From assembly GCA_903789595.1 (NCBI GenBank), contig CAIFEZ010000024.1:1-54953 (forward strand): a stretch of 54,953 nucleotides of DNA. Reading direction: 5' to 3'. Positions 17,342-52,860 of the stretch are shown piece after piece. A model generated the notes under the pieces. It was not told the DNA's origin. It searched no databases and saw only the letters and a list, made by a program, of their open reading frames with translations. The stretch's first letter is position 1. Every line of letters begins with the position of its first letter. The translations under genes were made by a program, and so were the position numbers. Origin of the DNA: an uncultured eubacterium 1-6 (lineage in GTDB: Bacteria; Bacillota; Clostridia; Lachnospirales; Lachnospiraceae).

Positions 17342-18118
17342 ATGAGATTATTACTGATCAGACATAGTGACCCGGATTATGTACAGGATACGTTGACGGA
17401 AAAGGGAGACAGAGAGGCAGAGCTTCTGGCCGATCTTCTTGCCGGAGAAAAGATGGACGATATCTATATGTCCCCCATGGGGAGGGCACAGAAAACCGCA
17501 TCCTATACGCTGGACAGACTTGGCAAAACGGGAAAGACACTGGAATGGCTGCATGAATTCGAATGCAGAATGGATATCAATCATTCAGATATTCTGAAGA
17601 AAGCCTACCCGGATGCGCGAAAACTGGAAGACGGGACTTTGGCGAGGGGGATACCCTGGGACATGCTTCCGTCATCCTTGATGGGAGATCCTGCCTATCT
17701 GGACCCCATAAAATGGAGAGAAAGCCTTGTGGCGCAAAACAGTAATATGACGGAGGTATATGACTGGGTGACAGGAGAGCTGGATCGTCTGCTGGAAGGA
17801 TACGGATATCGGAGAGAAAACGGATGCTATCATGTGAGCCGGGAATCGAGAAAGACTGTCGCATTCTTCTGCCACTTCGGGGTAAGCTGTGTGCTGCTGT
17901 CACATCTGTGGAACTGTTCTCCGTTCATTCCGTGGCATTTCCTGGGCATGCAGCCTTCATCTGTGACAGAGCTCGTGACGGAGGAAAGAGAATCCTGTAC
18001 GGCGATCTTCCGCGCGCTGAGGATCGGAGATATCTCACACCTGAAGGCGGGTCACGAGGAGCCTTCTTTCATGGGACGCTTTTGTGAGGTTTATTCGGAC
18101 ATGTCACAGAGACACTGA
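17342..18118 (+). CDS. Histidine phosphatase family protein
   Basis: The 258-residue cytoplasmic protein belongs to the phosphoglycerate-mutase-like branch of histidine phosphatases. The catalytic RH pair is at residues 7-8 (in LLLIRHSDPD), an MSPMGRAQKT segment provides the second arginine, and the late catalytic histidine is in FFCHFGVS. The family covers cobalamin-pathway phosphatases, phosphoglycerate mutases and sugar phosphatases, and the substrate cannot be told here. The protein is longer than typical alpha-ribazole phosphatases (about 200 residues). A cobalamin riboswitch lies just downstream, but its transcript starts after this gene, so a link is only suggestive. Confidence 0.85.
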   Translation: MRLLLIRHSDPDYVQDTLTEKGDREAELLADLLAGEKMDDIYMSPMGRAQKTASYTLDRLGKTGKTLEWLHEFECRMDINHSDILKKAYPDARKLEDGTLARGIPWDMLPSSLMGDPAYLDPIKWRESLVAQNSNMTEVYDWVTGELDRLLEGYGYRRENGCYHVSRESRKTVAFFCHFGVSCVLLSHLWNCSPFIPWHFLGMQPSSVTELVTEERESCTAIFRALRIGDISHLKAGHEEPSFMGRFCEVYSDMSQRH

Positions 18119-18282: not shown

Positions 18283-18311
18283 TTGACAATCGTAACGATC
18301 TGTCATATGAT
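18283..18311 (+). promoter_or_regulatory. Consensus sigma-A promoter of the riboswitch RNA
   Basis: TTGACA at 18283-18288 and TATGAT at 18306-18311 are separated by exactly 17 bases. Transcription would start near 18318, just before the P1 stem of the riboswitch. Confidence 0.85.
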
Positions 18312-18329
18312 AATTGACGTGTATAAATT

Positions 18330-18508
18330 CTATATCAGCTTTTCAGGTGAGGCCTTCATAAGGTCTGAGAGGGAACCAGGTGAGATGCCTGGACGATCCG
18401 GTCACTGTATACGGGGAGCGAGATGCAGATGCCATTGTATGTCCGCACATATGAGAAGGCGCATTGAACATGGATCCGTGAGTCAGGAAACCTGCCTGTG
18501 AGGTATAG
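18330..18508 (+). ncRNA. Cobalamin (vitamin B12) riboswitch
   Basis: The conserved core is present in order: GGGAA at 18371, a CAGGTG ... CCTGG hairpin, CACTGT at 18403-18408, GCCATTG near 18431, AAGGC near 18455, and the B12 box GTGAGTCAGGAAACCTGCC at 18478-18496. The P1 stem pairs CTATATC (18330-18336) with GGTATAG (18502-18508). Such RNAs bind adenosyl- or methylcobalamin and turn off the downstream gene. No recognisable cobalamin gene follows. Confidence 0.9.
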
Positions 18509-18770
18509 GTTAAAGCTTCCGAGCAAGGCTTTCATTTTATGAGATATGGAATGTCTGAACGAGTAATCACTCCGCCAGAGACCTGGAGCAGGATTTATGC
18601 ATGGTTTTACGGCAGGGTGAGATTCTTCAGAGCACGCCAATGTTTTATCGTACCATTTCCTCCGCAACAGATGGCTGACGATTTTCCGCAGAACAGAAGC
18701 TGTTCTGGAGTTCCCGCCCCTCTTGTTGAGTAAGAATGATAAAGTCGTAAAAGTAAAGCAGAGATGACAG

Positions 18771-18794
18771 CGTCCTTGAAGGGGCGTTTTTTTT
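18771..18794 (+). terminator. Terminator of the riboswitch transcript
   Basis: A short GC-rich hairpin (CGTCC ... GGGCG, one G-U pair) is followed by eight T residues. It ends a transcript of about 475 bases that begins at the promoter at 18283. Confidence 0.75.
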
Positions 18795-18822
18795 GTGCCT
18801 TCCTTCGGTTGTCTTGTATCTT

Positions 18823-18904
18823 TTGACAAAAAGAGATATACTTGCTGTAGAAATGAGTGCGAAGATGGTATTTTCAGAATAGTCATTTTTTTTTTGGGGG
18901 GGGG
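18823..18904 (+). promoter_or_regulatory. Promoter and T10-G9 tract before the EAL protein
   Basis: TTGACA at 18823-18828 is followed after 17 bases by a poor -10, TGTAGA, which has an extended TGC in front. The predicted leader then contains ten T (18886-18895) directly followed by nine G (18896-18904). Homopolymers of this length slip easily during replication, or can be a sequencing artefact. Confidence 0.5.
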
Positions 18905-18960
18905 CAGCCAACGGACTGGTTGACCCGATTCGAAGAAGAGAGAATTTAGGAGGCGGCGAG

Positions 18961-21900
18961 ATGAGCGATGCCTTATTTGAATTTTCCGATGCTGAAAAAC
19001 AGGTTCTGGAGGATCTGCCGGGCGCAGTTGGGGTGTACCAGATTATCAAGGGTAAGATTGTCCCCGTGTATCTTACGGAAAAGTTTCGGGAATTATTCGG
19101 TTACGAGACAGAAGAACAGGCGATGGATTCCGTGCGCAGGGATCCTTACCGGTACGCCCATCCGGACGATGCCGCCAGAATAGCCGAGTGCGGGTATCGA
19201 TTTGCGCGTGAAGATGCGGAGTATGATGTCGTTTTCCGGAGCAGAAAGCGGCGGCATAGTGAATATCATATCATTCATTCTACAGGCAGACATGTGTGGA
19301 AAAACGGAACACGACTTGCCTATATCTCGTATACGGATGAGAGCCGGATTCTGAACAGAGACGCAGAGGAAGGACGGCATTTATCAGAGGCTTTTTGTCA
19401 GAGAATATCGCTGGAAAATGATCTGCATCAGAATCAGTTCGATGATCTGACCGGTCTTCCGATGATCGGACGCTTTTTTCAGAGCGCGCCGGTTGAGATT
19501 CGTGAGATTCGAAAGCGGGGCGGAATTCCTGTCATCCTTTGGATGGATTACAGCAAGCTGAGGGAATATGATGCCCTGAACGGTTTTGAGAGGGGAGATG
19601 TTCTGATCCGCGGACTGGCCTGGCTGATCCGGGAGCAGTTCGGTGTTCGAAACACGGCGAGATTTAACAGCGATTATTTTGTGGTGTGCACGGAGCGGGA
19701 AGGACTGGAGAATCGTCTTCGTCATGTTTTCCAAGGAGCCGGAAAGCTGAATGAGGGGAATTCCAGGCCGGTTGCGGCAGGCATCTATGTGATGCAAGAG
19801 GAAGAGACCGCACTGGCAGCTGCAATTGATCGGGCAAAGATTGCCTGTGACTCCCTGGAGGAACCGGCGCATTCGTCGTTTGCATTTTTTGACCAGGAAA
19901 TGCAGGACAGGGCGAGATTCCGACAATATGTGCTGGAGAATTTTCACACGGCTATGGAGCAGGGATGGATACAGGTGTATTATCAGCCGGTGGTCCGGAC
20001 GGTGACCGGGAAGCTCTGCGGGGCAGAGGCCCTGTGCCGCTGGATCGATCCGGTATATGGGATGATTTCGCCGGGACAGTTTATTCCTGCGCTGGAGCAG
20101 GAGGGACGGATATGCGAGCTGGATTTCTACATGGTGGAGCAGGTCTGTCGATATGGGCGGGAGATCATACAGAGCGGAGAGGAGATCGTGCCGGTATCCG
20201 TAAATCTTTCCCGAAAGGATTTTCGGGATCCGAAGCTGGCCGACAGGATAGAGGATCTGGCGAGAAAGTATGAAATCCCGAGGGAACTTCTGAATATCGA
20301 GATTACGGAAAGCGCGTTCATCCGTCATCCGGAGCAGTTGGAATATCATATCCGACAGTTCCATGAGCTTGGATTTCAGGTGTGGATGGACGATTTCGGC
20401 ACGGCGTATTCTTCGCTGGGTTCTTTGAAGGATCTGAAATTCGATGAGCTGAAGATTGATATGAGCTTTCTGAGCACTTCGACGGATAAGGCGAGAAGGA
20501 TTCTTACGTCGGTTGTCGATATGGCGAAGAAGATCGGAATCCAGACGCTGGCGGAAGGAGTGGAGACGGAGGCACAGTACAAGTTCCTGAAGAGGATCGG
20601 ATGTGAAAAGGTTCAGGGCTATTGGTTCGGAAAGCCGATGGACAAGGACTCCTTTGGACGGCACTGCCGGATGAGGCAGATGGAAGCGGAGCCGCTTCGC
20701 CTGCGGAACTATTATGATAAGGTAAGCCGGATTGATTATCAGACGGATCTGCCGCTCTGTGTCATTGAGGATGACGGCGTAAGGATGCGGCAGCTGTTTA
20801 CAAATGAGGCCTATCAGAAGGTTCTGCGGCGGGATCACATTTCGGGAATTGACGTATGGCTGGAAGAGGTGAACGGGGACAATAATCCGATCCATGCCTT
20901 CCACCGGCAGTACGCCAATGAACAGCTGAGAAAGCTGCGGGGGCCACAGGTGATCACCTACCCGTCCGGCGATCATTATATGGAGCTGACCGGAAATGTC
21001 GTCACGCATTATGAGGATTGTTATATCTATGCGATGAATATCCGCTATATTCAGCTCAATACGATGTCGGAATATCAGAGAAAGGCGTTCTATATTCAGA
21101 ATATCTATTATCTGTGCAGCGATATCGCTGTCCTGGATCTTGAGAAAAAGACCATGTACGGCCTGAAATCCTCGGATTCCGCCCTGCCGATCGGATCCGG
21201 AGGAAAAAATATTGATTTAATAGATGGAGTAAACGGATACAACGAACAATTTGTGTATCCGCCGGACCAGGAGCGCTTCCGGCTGTTTTACGATCCGGAG
21301 TCACTGGAAAGGAGAATGCGGCAGAACCGGGAACAGGACCTGACAGGCTTTTTCCGGAGCAGAACGGGAGAGGCGGAGTACCGCTGGAAGCTACATATGA
21401 TCATGCCGGTTCCGAAAACCGATTTTCAGCAGTTTCTGTCCATTACCCTTCCGGTGGCGTTTGATCAGGAAACCCTCCGAGAGATTCGGAAAGAGATCGA
21501 GGCAGACGGAATGCAGCTTTCCGATCAGCCATTGGCGGAGGACGATGAGATCACAGAATCTTTGCTCTGGAGGAATCTGGAAGCCTATGCACAGGGGATG
21601 TATTTCTGGAAAGACAAAGAGCGCAGATTCAAGGGTGCGAGCCGGAGCTTTCTGGATTACTACGGATTCCGTTCACCGGATGAGATCCTTGGAAAAACGG
21701 ACGAGGATATGCACTGGCATGTTGAGCCGAAAGCGTTCCGGAAGGATGAGTTGAATGTCCTTCAATATGGAAGGATCGTAACACTTGTGCAGGGAAAGTG
21801 CATAGCCAGGGGAAAGCAGCGGGCGATTCTGGCAAGCAAAATGCCGATCTACCGGGATGGACGGATCATCGGACTGCTGGGGACTTTTTTTGACGCGGAC

Positions 21901-22419
21901 ACGATGATGCGCCTTTTGAACGAGCGGTATCAGTCGGTATCGGTGGACAGTAAAACGGAGCTTCTGAATACGAGGGGAGTATCCGAAAGTCTCCGGGATT
22001 ATCTGGAAACGCTCTGGACGCAGAATACGGAGTTTGCGCTGCTGCAGATTTTTATCCCGGAATATGAGGCCTTTCAGATCAGGTATGGAGAAGATGCCGG
22101 CAGGATATTGCTTCATTCTGTCGGCGATACGCTTTGCAGGATTTTCGGCAAAGAATGTTCTGTCGGAAGACTGACCGGAAGCTACTTTGCGATTCTGACA
22201 CAGGATGCGGATCTGAAGCGTCTACAGACGGCACGGACGAGAATACAGGAAGATATTGCAAGGCTGCGGAAGGCAGGAGATTGGAACTGTGCGCTGACAG
22301 CGAGGGTGCAGGTGACCGTGATGAACCAGAAGAATGCCGGCCGGGAGATCTACGCCAAGAATCTGAACCACATGTGGGCCGGTCTGGGCGGCGCCTTGCC
22401 GGATCCAGGATCTGCTTGA
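18961..22419 (+). CDS. EAL c-di-GMP phosphodiesterase with PAS and two degenerate GGDEF domains
   Basis: This 1152-residue cytoplasmic signalling protein probably hydrolyses cyclic di-GMP. An N-terminal PAS-like domain (about 15-130) is followed by a GGDEF domain whose signature has decayed to NSDYF at 236-240, so cyclase activity is unlikely. The EAL domain (about 320-570) is intact: E356-A-L, N415, E450 (in ITE), DDFG at 477-480, K498, AEGVE at 531-535 and Q552. Two further sensor-like regions (about 600-850 and 870-985, the latter PAS-like with an FRSPDEILGKTDEDM segment) lead to a second degenerate GGDEF fold with LTGSYF near 1070. The start has an AGGAGG site. No membrane segment is seen. 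The degenerate GGDEF domains may bind GTP as regulators, which is known for other EAL proteins. Confidence 0.9.
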   Translation: MSDALFEFSDAEKQVLEDLPGAVGVYQIIKGKIVPVYLTEKFRELFGYETEEQAMDSVRRDPYRYAHPDDAARIAECGYRFAREDAEYDVVFRSRKRRHSEYHIIHSTGRHVWKNGTRLAYISYTDESRILNRDAEEGRHLSEAFCQRISLENDLHQNQFDDLTGLPMIGRFFQSAPVEIREIRKRGGIPVILWMDYSKLREYDALNGFERGDVLIRGLAWLIREQFGVRNTARFNSDYFVVCTEREGLENRLRHVFQGAGKLNEGNSRPVAAGIYVMQEEETALAAAIDRAKIACDSLEEPAHSSFAFFDQEMQDRARFRQYVLENFHTAMEQGWIQVYYQPVVRTVTGKLCGAEALCRWIDPVYGMISPGQFIPALEQEGRICELDFYMVEQVCRYGREIIQSGEEIVPVSVNLSRKDFRDPKLADRIEDLARKYEIPRELLNIEITESAFIRHPEQLEYHIRQFHELGFQVWMDDFGTAYSSLGSLKDLKFDELKIDMSFLSTSTDKARRILTSVVDMAKKIGIQTLAEGVETEAQYKFLKRIGCEKVQGYWFGKPMDKDSFGRHCRMRQMEAEPLRLRNYYDKVSRIDYQTDLPLCVIEDDGVRMRQLFTNEAYQKVLRRDHISGIDVWLEEVNGDNNPIHAFHRQYANEQLRKLRGPQVITYPSGDHYMELTGNVVTHYEDCYIYAMNIRYIQLNTMSEYQRKAFYIQNIYYLCSDIAVLDLEKKTMYGLKSSDSALPIGSGGKNIDLIDGVNGYNEQFVYPPDQERFRLFYDPESLERRMRQNREQDLTGFFRSRTGEAEYRWKLHMIMPVPKTDFQQFLSITLPVAFDQETLREIRKEIEADGMQLSDQPLAEDDEITESLLWRNLEAYAQGMYFWKDKERRFKGASRSFLDYYGFRSPDEILGKTDEDMHWHVEPKAFRKDELNVLQYGRIVTLVQGKCIARGKQRAILASKMPIYRDGRIIGLLGTFFDADTMMRLLNERYQSVSVDSKTELLNTRGVSESLRDYLETLWTQNTEFALLQIFIPEYEAFQIRYGEDAGRILLHSVGDTLCRIFGKECSVGRLTGSYFAILTQDADLKRLQTARTRIQEDIARLRKAGDWNCALTARVQVTVMNQKNAGREIYAKNLNHMWAGLGGALPDPGSA

Positions 22420-22444: not shown

Positions 22445-22494
22445 TAACAGGAAATATTTGTGCCGGGCTTGTACGGCGCAAGAATAGCTTTAAA

Positions 22495-22775
22495 GACTGT
22501 GAAGAAGAGGAGTACGCACAAAGGCGCCGACAGAGAGGGTTTCAGATGCTGAGAGAAATCCGGGTTTTACCTGTGCGGAAGGTAGCTTCCGAGTCGGAAT
22601 CCTGAGGATACGGAGGGGTACTCCGGGAGATCGCCAGGGATTCCCGCCCGATCCCCGTTACCGGATGAAATGAGGCATATATGTTTCCGTTTTGAGCGGA
22701 TAGATATGTGAAGCAAGGTGGTACCGCGATAAGATCGCCCTTTGCACAGTATGTGCAGAGGGCGATTATTTTGTT
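22495..22775 (+). ncRNA. T-box leader, valine-responsive
   Basis: This leader reads uncharged tRNA-Val and controls valS. The base of stem I pairs GACTGTGAAG (22495-) with CTTCCGAGTC (ending 22595). An AGTA loop-E motif sits opposite a specifier loop containing the valine codon GTA (22582-22584). The T-box sequence AAGGTGGTACCGCG is at 22715-22728. The terminator hairpin ATCGCCC ... GGGCGAT spans 22734-22766 and is followed by a T-rich run. The whole 391-base gap before valS is this leader plus its promoter. Confidence 0.95.
22734..22775 (+). terminator. Terminator of the valS T-box
   Basis: A long stem of about 15 base pairs (ATCGCCCT, TGCACA and their complements) is followed by TATTTTGTT. 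It forms when tRNA-Val is charged and is replaced by the antiterminator when the tRNA is uncharged. Confidence 0.9.
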
Positions 22776-52655: not shown

Positions 52656-52766
52656 GAAGAGCCGGTTAGGGTGTTTATTGTATAAGCTGCGCGTCGCTTC
52701 GCACTTCGTGCTTTCGCGCCGCTACAGGTATTCGCGTTCTCGCGGTGTTTCACACCGCTCCACGCT

Positions 52767-52860
52767 CATACCTGTTGCCTTCGAAATCGCATCCAGTCTC
52801 TTACACACGCTTCGCGGCAGGCGGGCCTGTCTGCGTTTTCGAAGAGCTTATACAATAAAA
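52767..52860 (+). repeat. Dispersed repeat family B, copy 2 (full)
   Basis: It aligns with copy 1 at 42681 along its full length. The outer stem reads CTTCGAAA-T-CGCA with TGCG-T-TTTCGAAG: the A-T pair of copy 1 is a G-C pair here, a compensatory change. It abuts the leftward HPr terminator. Confidence 0.8.

Follow-up and report, generated by a model that had tools for sequence, protein, structure and literature searches.

A conserved, structured RNA beneath a cobalamin riboswitch in Bilifractor and its relatives, a candidate anti-Shine-Dalgarno regulator

Introduction

To our knowledge, only a few riboswitches control non-coding RNAs. RNAs that sequester ANTAR proteins possess two nearby stem-loops with hexaloops bearing A at position 1 and G at position 4, and small RNAs of the LhrC type carry CU-rich loops. 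As reviewed (PMC8079631), a B12 riboswitch of Listeria controls AspocR, a non-coding RNA antisense to pocR, LhrC-type RNAs of Listeria pair with Shine-Dalgarno (SD) regions, and the Listeria SAM riboswitch fragments SreA and SreB act in trans on prfA mRNA. The same review describes Rli55 (PMC8079631). RNAs of this Rli55/EutX kind carry a B12 riboswitch and act by sequestering EutV, an ANTAR protein.

The unit described here lies on contig C24 of a genome of 3.66 Mb in 66 contigs, within a stretch of 54,953 nucleotides that was analysed as a whole (the window). The closest named relative of this genome is Bilifractor porci (Lachnospiraceae), a cultured species represented below by genome G008, and Bilifractor has been reported as a putative rumen acetogen genus (PMC12449052). 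Compared with AspocR, the window RNA is alike in that a cobalamin aptamer precedes a non-coding RNA, with a predicted terminator between the two in relatives; it differs in lying between two annotated + strand genes, neither antisense to a regulator gene nor beside pocR, and in being about 480 nt long with a conserved folded domain. With Rli55/EutX it shares a riboswitch-controlled RNA lacking a gene, but it has conserved CU-rich loops and no ANTAR double hexaloop. Like the LhrC-type RNAs, its body has a CU-rich, anti-SD-like motif that is predicted to be unpaired and could pair with an SD sequence, but it carries a metabolite aptamer, and as far as Rfam shows the body is unrelated in sequence. 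The likeness to SreA and SreB would be the use of a riboswitch RNA in trans; there the cut riboswitch itself acts, whereas here a separate conserved body stands 3' of the aptamer. By analogy the window RNA seems to combine AspocR, whose RNA is under the control of a switch, with an anti-SD RNA of the LhrC kind, and we class it as neither, because antisense and ANTAR features were looked for and not found.

Here, we describe a comparative analysis of this locus. At the level of sequence, we present evidence for an aptamer, a conserved promoter, a conserved non-coding body, helices D and F, and a lock on the 5' end formed by the pairings P0 and P1. Furthermore, we show that six relatives have a predicted terminator between the aptamer and the body, which a script found in five of them and the eye in the other.

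Results

A cobalamin aptamer in a unit without a conserved protein gene

The unit (window 18319-18796) combines a promoter, a full cobalamin aptamer and a terminator, and holds no conserved protein. Its features and neighbours are as follows.

17342-18118, + strand: annotated histidine phosphatase gene, upstream neighbour
18283-18311, + strand: promoter TTGACA-17-TATGAT, 11 of 12 consensus matches, by itself within chance
18328-18513, + strand: cobalamin riboswitch aptamer, Rfam RF00174, model positions 1-189 of 189
18513-18531, + strand: P13-like hairpin AAGCTT-CCGAGCA-AGGCTT, read from the sequence
18539-18733, + strand: open reading frame of 64 aa
18356-18886, - strand: open reading frame of 176 aa opposite the RNA
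18769-18796, + strand: intrinsic terminator T2, 3' end of the RNA, from a terminator scan, with T2-like elements in relatives
18961-22419, + strand: annotated PAS/EAL/GGDEF protein gene, downstream neighbour
22490-22745, + strand: T-box leader before valS, 94.8 bits, barely above the cut-off of 93

A preliminary description of this DNA had proposed a complete B12 riboswitch unit with its own promoter and terminator but no gene, and this is confirmed. The window aptamer scores 91.9 bits against RF00174 (E 1.5e-21, cut-off 31.5), clearly more than chance, and 17 other loci score 79-107 bits. Rfam thereby confirms the aptamer at 18 of 19 loci; at the remaining one, in G014, the 5' part of the aptamer falls on a different contig and the match comes from DNA alone. 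The aptamer is predicted to be of the adenosylcobalamin (AdoCbl) type. The hairpin at 18513-18531, which we take to be P13, has counterparts by eye in G015 (AATCTT/AAGATT) and G007 (GACTA/TAGTT). The window genome contains four more cobalamin riboswitches (L001, L003, L004 and L005), none of which, by eye, has the platform described below, and in G709 (L126) a second aptamer-like stretch (GTCCGGTGAAAGTCCGG...), seen by eye and below Rfam cut-offs, lies about 200-300 nt past the RNA body.

The promoter is the sole sigma-70-like site, and 18769-18788 the sole terminator-like site, between 17800 and 19300; each alone is within chance for that interval (2.0 and 1.1 expected in shuffles). TTGAC is kept at the matching position upstream of the RNA in 13 of the 14 relatives listed, the exception being G172. 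Judging from the -10 box, the transcript would start near 18319. Behind the body, a script found a hairpin followed by a T-run (-8.6 kcal/mol or lower) at 12 of 18 loci, the T2-like terminator being undetected or weak in G015, G097, G709, G172, G264 and G234.

Upstream, a rhamnulokinase-like (FGGY) gene and rhaA precede the histidine phosphatase gene, and the PAS/EAL/GGDEF gene is followed by the T-box and valS. Ahead of the PAS/EAL/GGDEF gene, a T-run followed by a G-run (window about 18887-18905) could be slippage-prone or an assembly artefact, and a Clostridiales-1 RNA (RF01699, 77.3 bits) lies at 52682-52851 on the - strand.

The RNA body is conserved in eight genera

Of 16 Bilifractor genomes, 8 share a conserved stretch of approximately 270 nt 3' of the aptamer, that of the window among them (G000, G003, G006, G007, G008, G011, G014 and G015). 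The stretch is also recognisable in 11 genomes of seven other genera, giving 19 loci in eight genera. The Bilifractor loci came from a DNA search of 61 genomes with the 512-base unit as query, in which only matches extending past the aptamer were counted; in the alignment, long conserved blocks continue beyond the aptamer. Loci in other genera were found with aptamer-free models or a motif, and each was then linked to an aptamer by Rfam. Model R1, covering 129 positions behind the aptamer, matched 7 of 397 family genomes, five of them beyond Bilifractor (G097, G406, G309, G264 and G157); the sequence-only model R2 matched 8 of 392 order genomes, adding G707, G709 and G234; and a motif search matched 8 of 397 genomes, adding G067, G385 and G172. 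Matches with no aptamer were dropped, namely G320, G600 and G633 for R2 and G223, G380 and G320 for the motif. Since the searches sample species and apply strict filters, these carrier counts are lower bounds. Between 18500 and 18830 the body has no Rfam match at E<=1, and no account of this RNA was found in the open-licence literature searched.

The body folds into helices maintained by compensatory change

The predicted elements of the fold are listed below.

18319-18330, + strand: P0 5' strand GTGTATAAATTC, at the inferred transcript start, partner 18591-18602
18327-18336, + strand: P1 5' strand ATTCTATATC, partner 18543-18552, 10 pairs in the window
18543-18552, + strand: P1 3' strand GATATGGAAT, pairs with the P1 5' strand
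18553-18582, + strand: hairpin E, GTCTGAAC..GAGTAATCACTC..CAGAGAC, present in the unconstrained fold
18591-18602, + strand: P0 3' strand GGATTTATGCAT, pairs with the P0 5' strand
18615-18644, + strand: helix D 5' arm (GGGTGAGATTCTTCAGAG...), from the arm-swap test
18647-18682, + strand: hairpin F, arms 18647-18657 and 18670-18682, loop containing TTTCCTCCGCA, from the arm-swap test
18656-18666, + strand: seed 1, TTTCCTCCGCA, anti-SD-like, from the conservation of CCTCCGC
18682-18693, + strand: seed 2, TTTTCCGCAGAA, flanked by hairpin F and the 3' arm of helix D
18692-18719, + strand: helix D 3' arm (..CTGTTCTGGAGTTCCCGCCC), from the arm-swap test

At all 18 loci examined, which leave out G014 as it has no 5' end, the first bases of the RNA (GTGTATAAATTCTATATC) can pair with two stretches 3' of the aptamer, forming P1 and P0; P1 is weak in G234 (-5.5 kcal/mol). 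Next along the RNA come hairpin E, then a stretch in which ACGGC is conserved, then helix D, which closes a loop that contains hairpin F and both CCGC motifs. The sequence at the position of hairpin E is changed in G309 and G157 and, by eye, still self-complementary.

In an arm-swap test, which involves no hand-picked pairs, the 5' arm of each locus was paired both with the 3' arm of the same locus and with those of all the others. Own arms gave -32.3 kcal/mol for helix D against -20.1 for swapped arms, and -9.2 against -4.4 for hairpin F (15 loci, permutation p<=5e-5 for each), whereas six flanking control pairs given the same treatment yielded p values of 0.19-0.89 (14 loci). Four of the 19 loci were omitted, the near copies G011, G003 and G006 and the motif-less G234, and close relatives render the test conservative. 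The test shows that compensatory changes have kept helices D and F paired while their sequences varied. The unconstrained fold of the window RNA includes P0, E, D and F; its energy is unexceptional, both for the whole RNA (z -1.55, 8 of 100 shuffles as good) and for the body (z -1.40, 16 of 200).

The preliminary description had also pointed to a perfect 8-bp hairpin (18689-18707) ahead of the terminator. The sequence exists as described, but the hairpin overlaps the 3' arm of helix D, is missing from the unconstrained minimum-energy fold and costs 1.8 kcal/mol when forced. It occurs in 4 of 18 bodies (G000, G011, G003 and, with altered but paired letters, G014), the remaining 14 bodies with the motif having at most 5 bp at this position; it is a local alternative that competes with helix D, and within that subclade it may represent a second state of the RNA. 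In a further alternative, hairpin C, part of 18553-18582 is base-paired to the beginning of helix D. In an RNAalifold consensus, 2 of its 22 pairs are changed on both sides; by eye it is longer, terminator-like and ends in a T-run in G007 and G015, and is unformed in G309. We rejected it as the main structure and retain it only as an alternative. Pairing of GGCAGG with the B12 box was likewise rejected, being lost, by eye, in G097.

Two anti-Shine-Dalgarno-like motifs recur in the body

CCTCCGC (CCUCCGC in the RNA) is present in 18 of 19 bodies, the exception being G234. In 13 it lies within the loop of hairpin F; in G709, G707, G067, G385 and G172 that loop is occupied by the related motif CCGCA, with CCTCCGC standing 3' of F. 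No gene behind the RNA needs seed 1 in cis. The second CCGC motif is found in 17 of 19 bodies, all except G264 and G234. The seed letters TCCGCA recur, by eye, in a hairpin loop of the aptamer (window about 18445) at several loci and are missing there from the G006, G008, G309 and g53 loci.

Terminators and genes around the body

In G264, G709, G707, G385 and G172, a script found, between aptamer and body, a hairpin (-9.6 to -14.7 kcal/mol) with at least 6 T after it; a like terminator is seen by eye in G067, where the script picked another hairpin. Behind such a predicted terminator, the body stands at the position that a regulated gene would have. The script found none at this place in Bilifractor, the window included, or in G097, G406, G309 and G157.

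We listed the next gene at all 19 loci as the next open reading frame that is 100 aa or longer and lies over 120 nt past the conserved motif. A valS-like gene on the same strand is next in eight (G003, G006, G008, G014, G015, G097, G406 and G172; checked by NCBIfam for the first five and for the window's own valS, and by eye for the last three), an EAL/GGDEF gene in G000 and G011, a gene on the opposite strand in three (G309, G157 and G707), and another same-strand gene in G007, G264, G709, G067 and G385. In G234 a 92-aa cysteine-rich zf-like (PF04071) gene with the SD sequence GAAAGGAG lies directly behind a related platform. The locus is thus partly syntenic with a variable next gene, and G234 looks like a cis version. 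Two observations concern the neighbourhood: the B12 RNA adjoins valS in several relatives, the valS of the window carrying a T-box leader, and in G007 (L032) the RNA lies ahead of a serine-acetyltransferase-like gene, an HbpS-like gene and pdu dehydratase genes.

Candidate targets

PduC, of the B12-dependent diol dehydratase, is encoded by each of the 8 Bilifractor genomes that carry the RNA and by 2 of the 8 that lack it (G004 and G005), but by only 1 of the 11 carriers in other genera; the association is confined to one genus, so shared ancestry may explain it. The ribosome-binding site (RBS) of pduC reads TTGCGGAG in G000, G003 and G011 and not in G015, G006, G008 or G007; ATGCGGAGGA precedes pduD in G006 and G008, and G015 has neither TTGCGGAG before pduC nor ATGCGGAGGA before pduD. 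We rejected pdu as a general target, since the link fails outside Bilifractor and the complementarity is patchy. In the window's own genome there are 10 distinct TTGCGGAGN{0,1}AAA sites, one being the RNA itself, and pduC is the only one recognised among them with a start codon at SD distance. A genome-wide search by seed was abandoned because too many SD sequences match: each genome has 23-59 sites at which GCGGAGGA precedes ATG (5-16 for a reversed-pattern control), so that complementarity alone is weak evidence.

The sole genome whose seed reads CCGCTTAA is G157. Its variant seed ATCCTCCGCTTAA is a perfect complement, over 13 nt, to the ribosome site of a 4Fe-4S protein gene, a locus chosen because it matched, and likewise a perfect complement to the ribosome sites of fchA (11 nt), folD (11 nt) and a metF-like gene (9 nt), gene names being from Pfam. 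That genome has four TAAGCGGAGG sites, of which one belongs to the RNA itself and two coincide with ribosome sites. No more than about 6 kb separates fchA and folD from the RNA, and their cluster includes a gene for a RACo corrinoid-activation protein. The C1-pathway genes of G157 are the best lead to putative targets.

As a control, the loop of each genome was compared with the loops of other genomes on the same genes, and overall the own loop matched no better. The own maximum against the cross mean was 9 against 9.17 (G000), 9 against 9.75 (G309), 8 against 8.5 (G097) and 7 against 7.0 (G015); the own loop was clearly better in G157 only (13 against 10.4), and at the fchA site of G157 the loops of some other genomes match better (12 against 11). 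The WL-cluster genes of G000, G172, G385, G067 and G709 have no own match of at least 8 nt. Because this control is not favourable overall, pairing in trans is something that we infer.

Discussion

Comparison of sequences shows the RNA beneath the B12 aptamer to be real, conserved and structured. The preliminary description had suggested a B12-controlled small RNA and named conservation of 18510-18770 in relatives as a check; that conservation is found, and the idea gains support from the conserved body and from compensatory change in D and F. The unit may well be a trans-acting, anti-SD small RNA controlled by a B12 riboswitch rather than a leader, a reading that we regard as about evenly balanced between right and wrong. 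The 5' AdoCbl-type aptamer would set how much of the approximately 270-nt downstream RNA is made or kept. In that RNA the long closed helix D would display the hairpin F loop and an adjacent single strand, both CU-rich and anti-SD-like, which could pair in trans with the ribosome-binding sites of mRNAs. In the most likely direction, the full RNA would be made without B12 and would repress translation of mRNAs for corrinoid-needing or linked C1-pathway products, and with B12 the RNA would be cut short. Weighing against this reading are the loop control, unfavourable overall, the many SD matches, the ordinary fold energy, the lack of an inter-domain terminator at the Bilifractor, G097, G406, G309 and G157 loci, and the small number of family genomes in which a search of limited sensitivity found the RNA. 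We infer that the unit is transcribed and responds to the ligand; the sign proposed for the response draws on the terminator-bearing relatives and on the general behaviour of the class. In the window, which has no inter-domain terminator, B12 may act through the stability of P1 and P0 or through hairpin C.

Alternatively, the unit could be a riboswitch acting in cis, whose anti-SD loop and terminators control the next gene (zf-like, serine-acetyltransferase-like/pdu, EAL/GGDEF, MATE-like or valS), so that the standalone look would be that of long leaders. The G234 platform directly ahead of the PF04071 gene is consistent with this, as are G007, where the next gene past a terminator opens the pdu region and has an RBS with a 10-nt complement to the loop, and the window and G011, where an EAL/GGDEF gene follows on the same strand, about 165 nt past the terminator in the window. 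However, the next gene differs among loci and is on the opposite strand in 3 of 19, a T-box leader intervenes in the window, G003, G406 and G172, and conservation stops at helix D, not at a gene; we consider the cis reading rather unlikely. Equally improbable, in our estimate, is a B12-controlled RNA that binds a protein and not mRNA, such as a regulator with a liking for CU-rich loops, as a functional analogue of EutX/Rli55. The domain is compact and conserved and its two loop motifs are invariant, which would suit a protein as well as RNA pairing, and the negative outcome of the loop control points the same way; against it, the letters of the loop resemble an anti-SD sequence, and ribosome sites that match the G157 variant lie near the RNA. 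Moreover, a scan of 19 bodies for the tandem ANNGNN hexaloop hairpins of ANTAR-sequestering RNAs (stems of at least 4 pairs, gap of at most 25 nt) found them in none, which leaves unsupported the Eut-type sequestration to which the preliminary description had likened the unit.

The same description had offered a decayed operon leader, which without present function we hold to be very improbable. The window has no B12-related-looking gene behind the RNA, and Bilifractor has no terminator between aptamer and body, both of which speak for decay, but the body is conserved, D and F show compensatory change across eight genera, and the aptamers are intact. A cis leader may nevertheless be the origin of the RNA, because G234 carries a related platform in cis before its zf-like gene. 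Least credible of all, and rejected as a candidate, is a small protein or leader peptide: the 64-aa frame at 18539-18733 is open, but it has no Pfam match, and in the 11 sequences having the corresponding ATG the frame runs from 3 to 91 aa and is shifted.

Returning to the reading of a trans-acting anti-SD RNA, we tentatively extend it, with somewhat less confidence than we place in the reading itself, to a class of small RNAs spanning the gut Lachnospiraceae, in which a B12 riboswitch would directly control an anti-SD RNA acting in trans, born from a G234-like cis platform by the freeing of its anti-SD arm. Such RNAs would match corrinoid-dependent or C1/acetogenic metabolism to the available cofactor. 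The step from a cis switch to a trans regulator may be illustrated by G234. Conservation across eight genera with a folded body makes this RNA a phylogenetically deep example, in gut commensals, of a riboswitch joined to a non-coding RNA. If the pairing with mRNAs is true, B12 would control other genes at a distance, and a single vitamin could set how far many genes are translated, with no regulatory protein involved.
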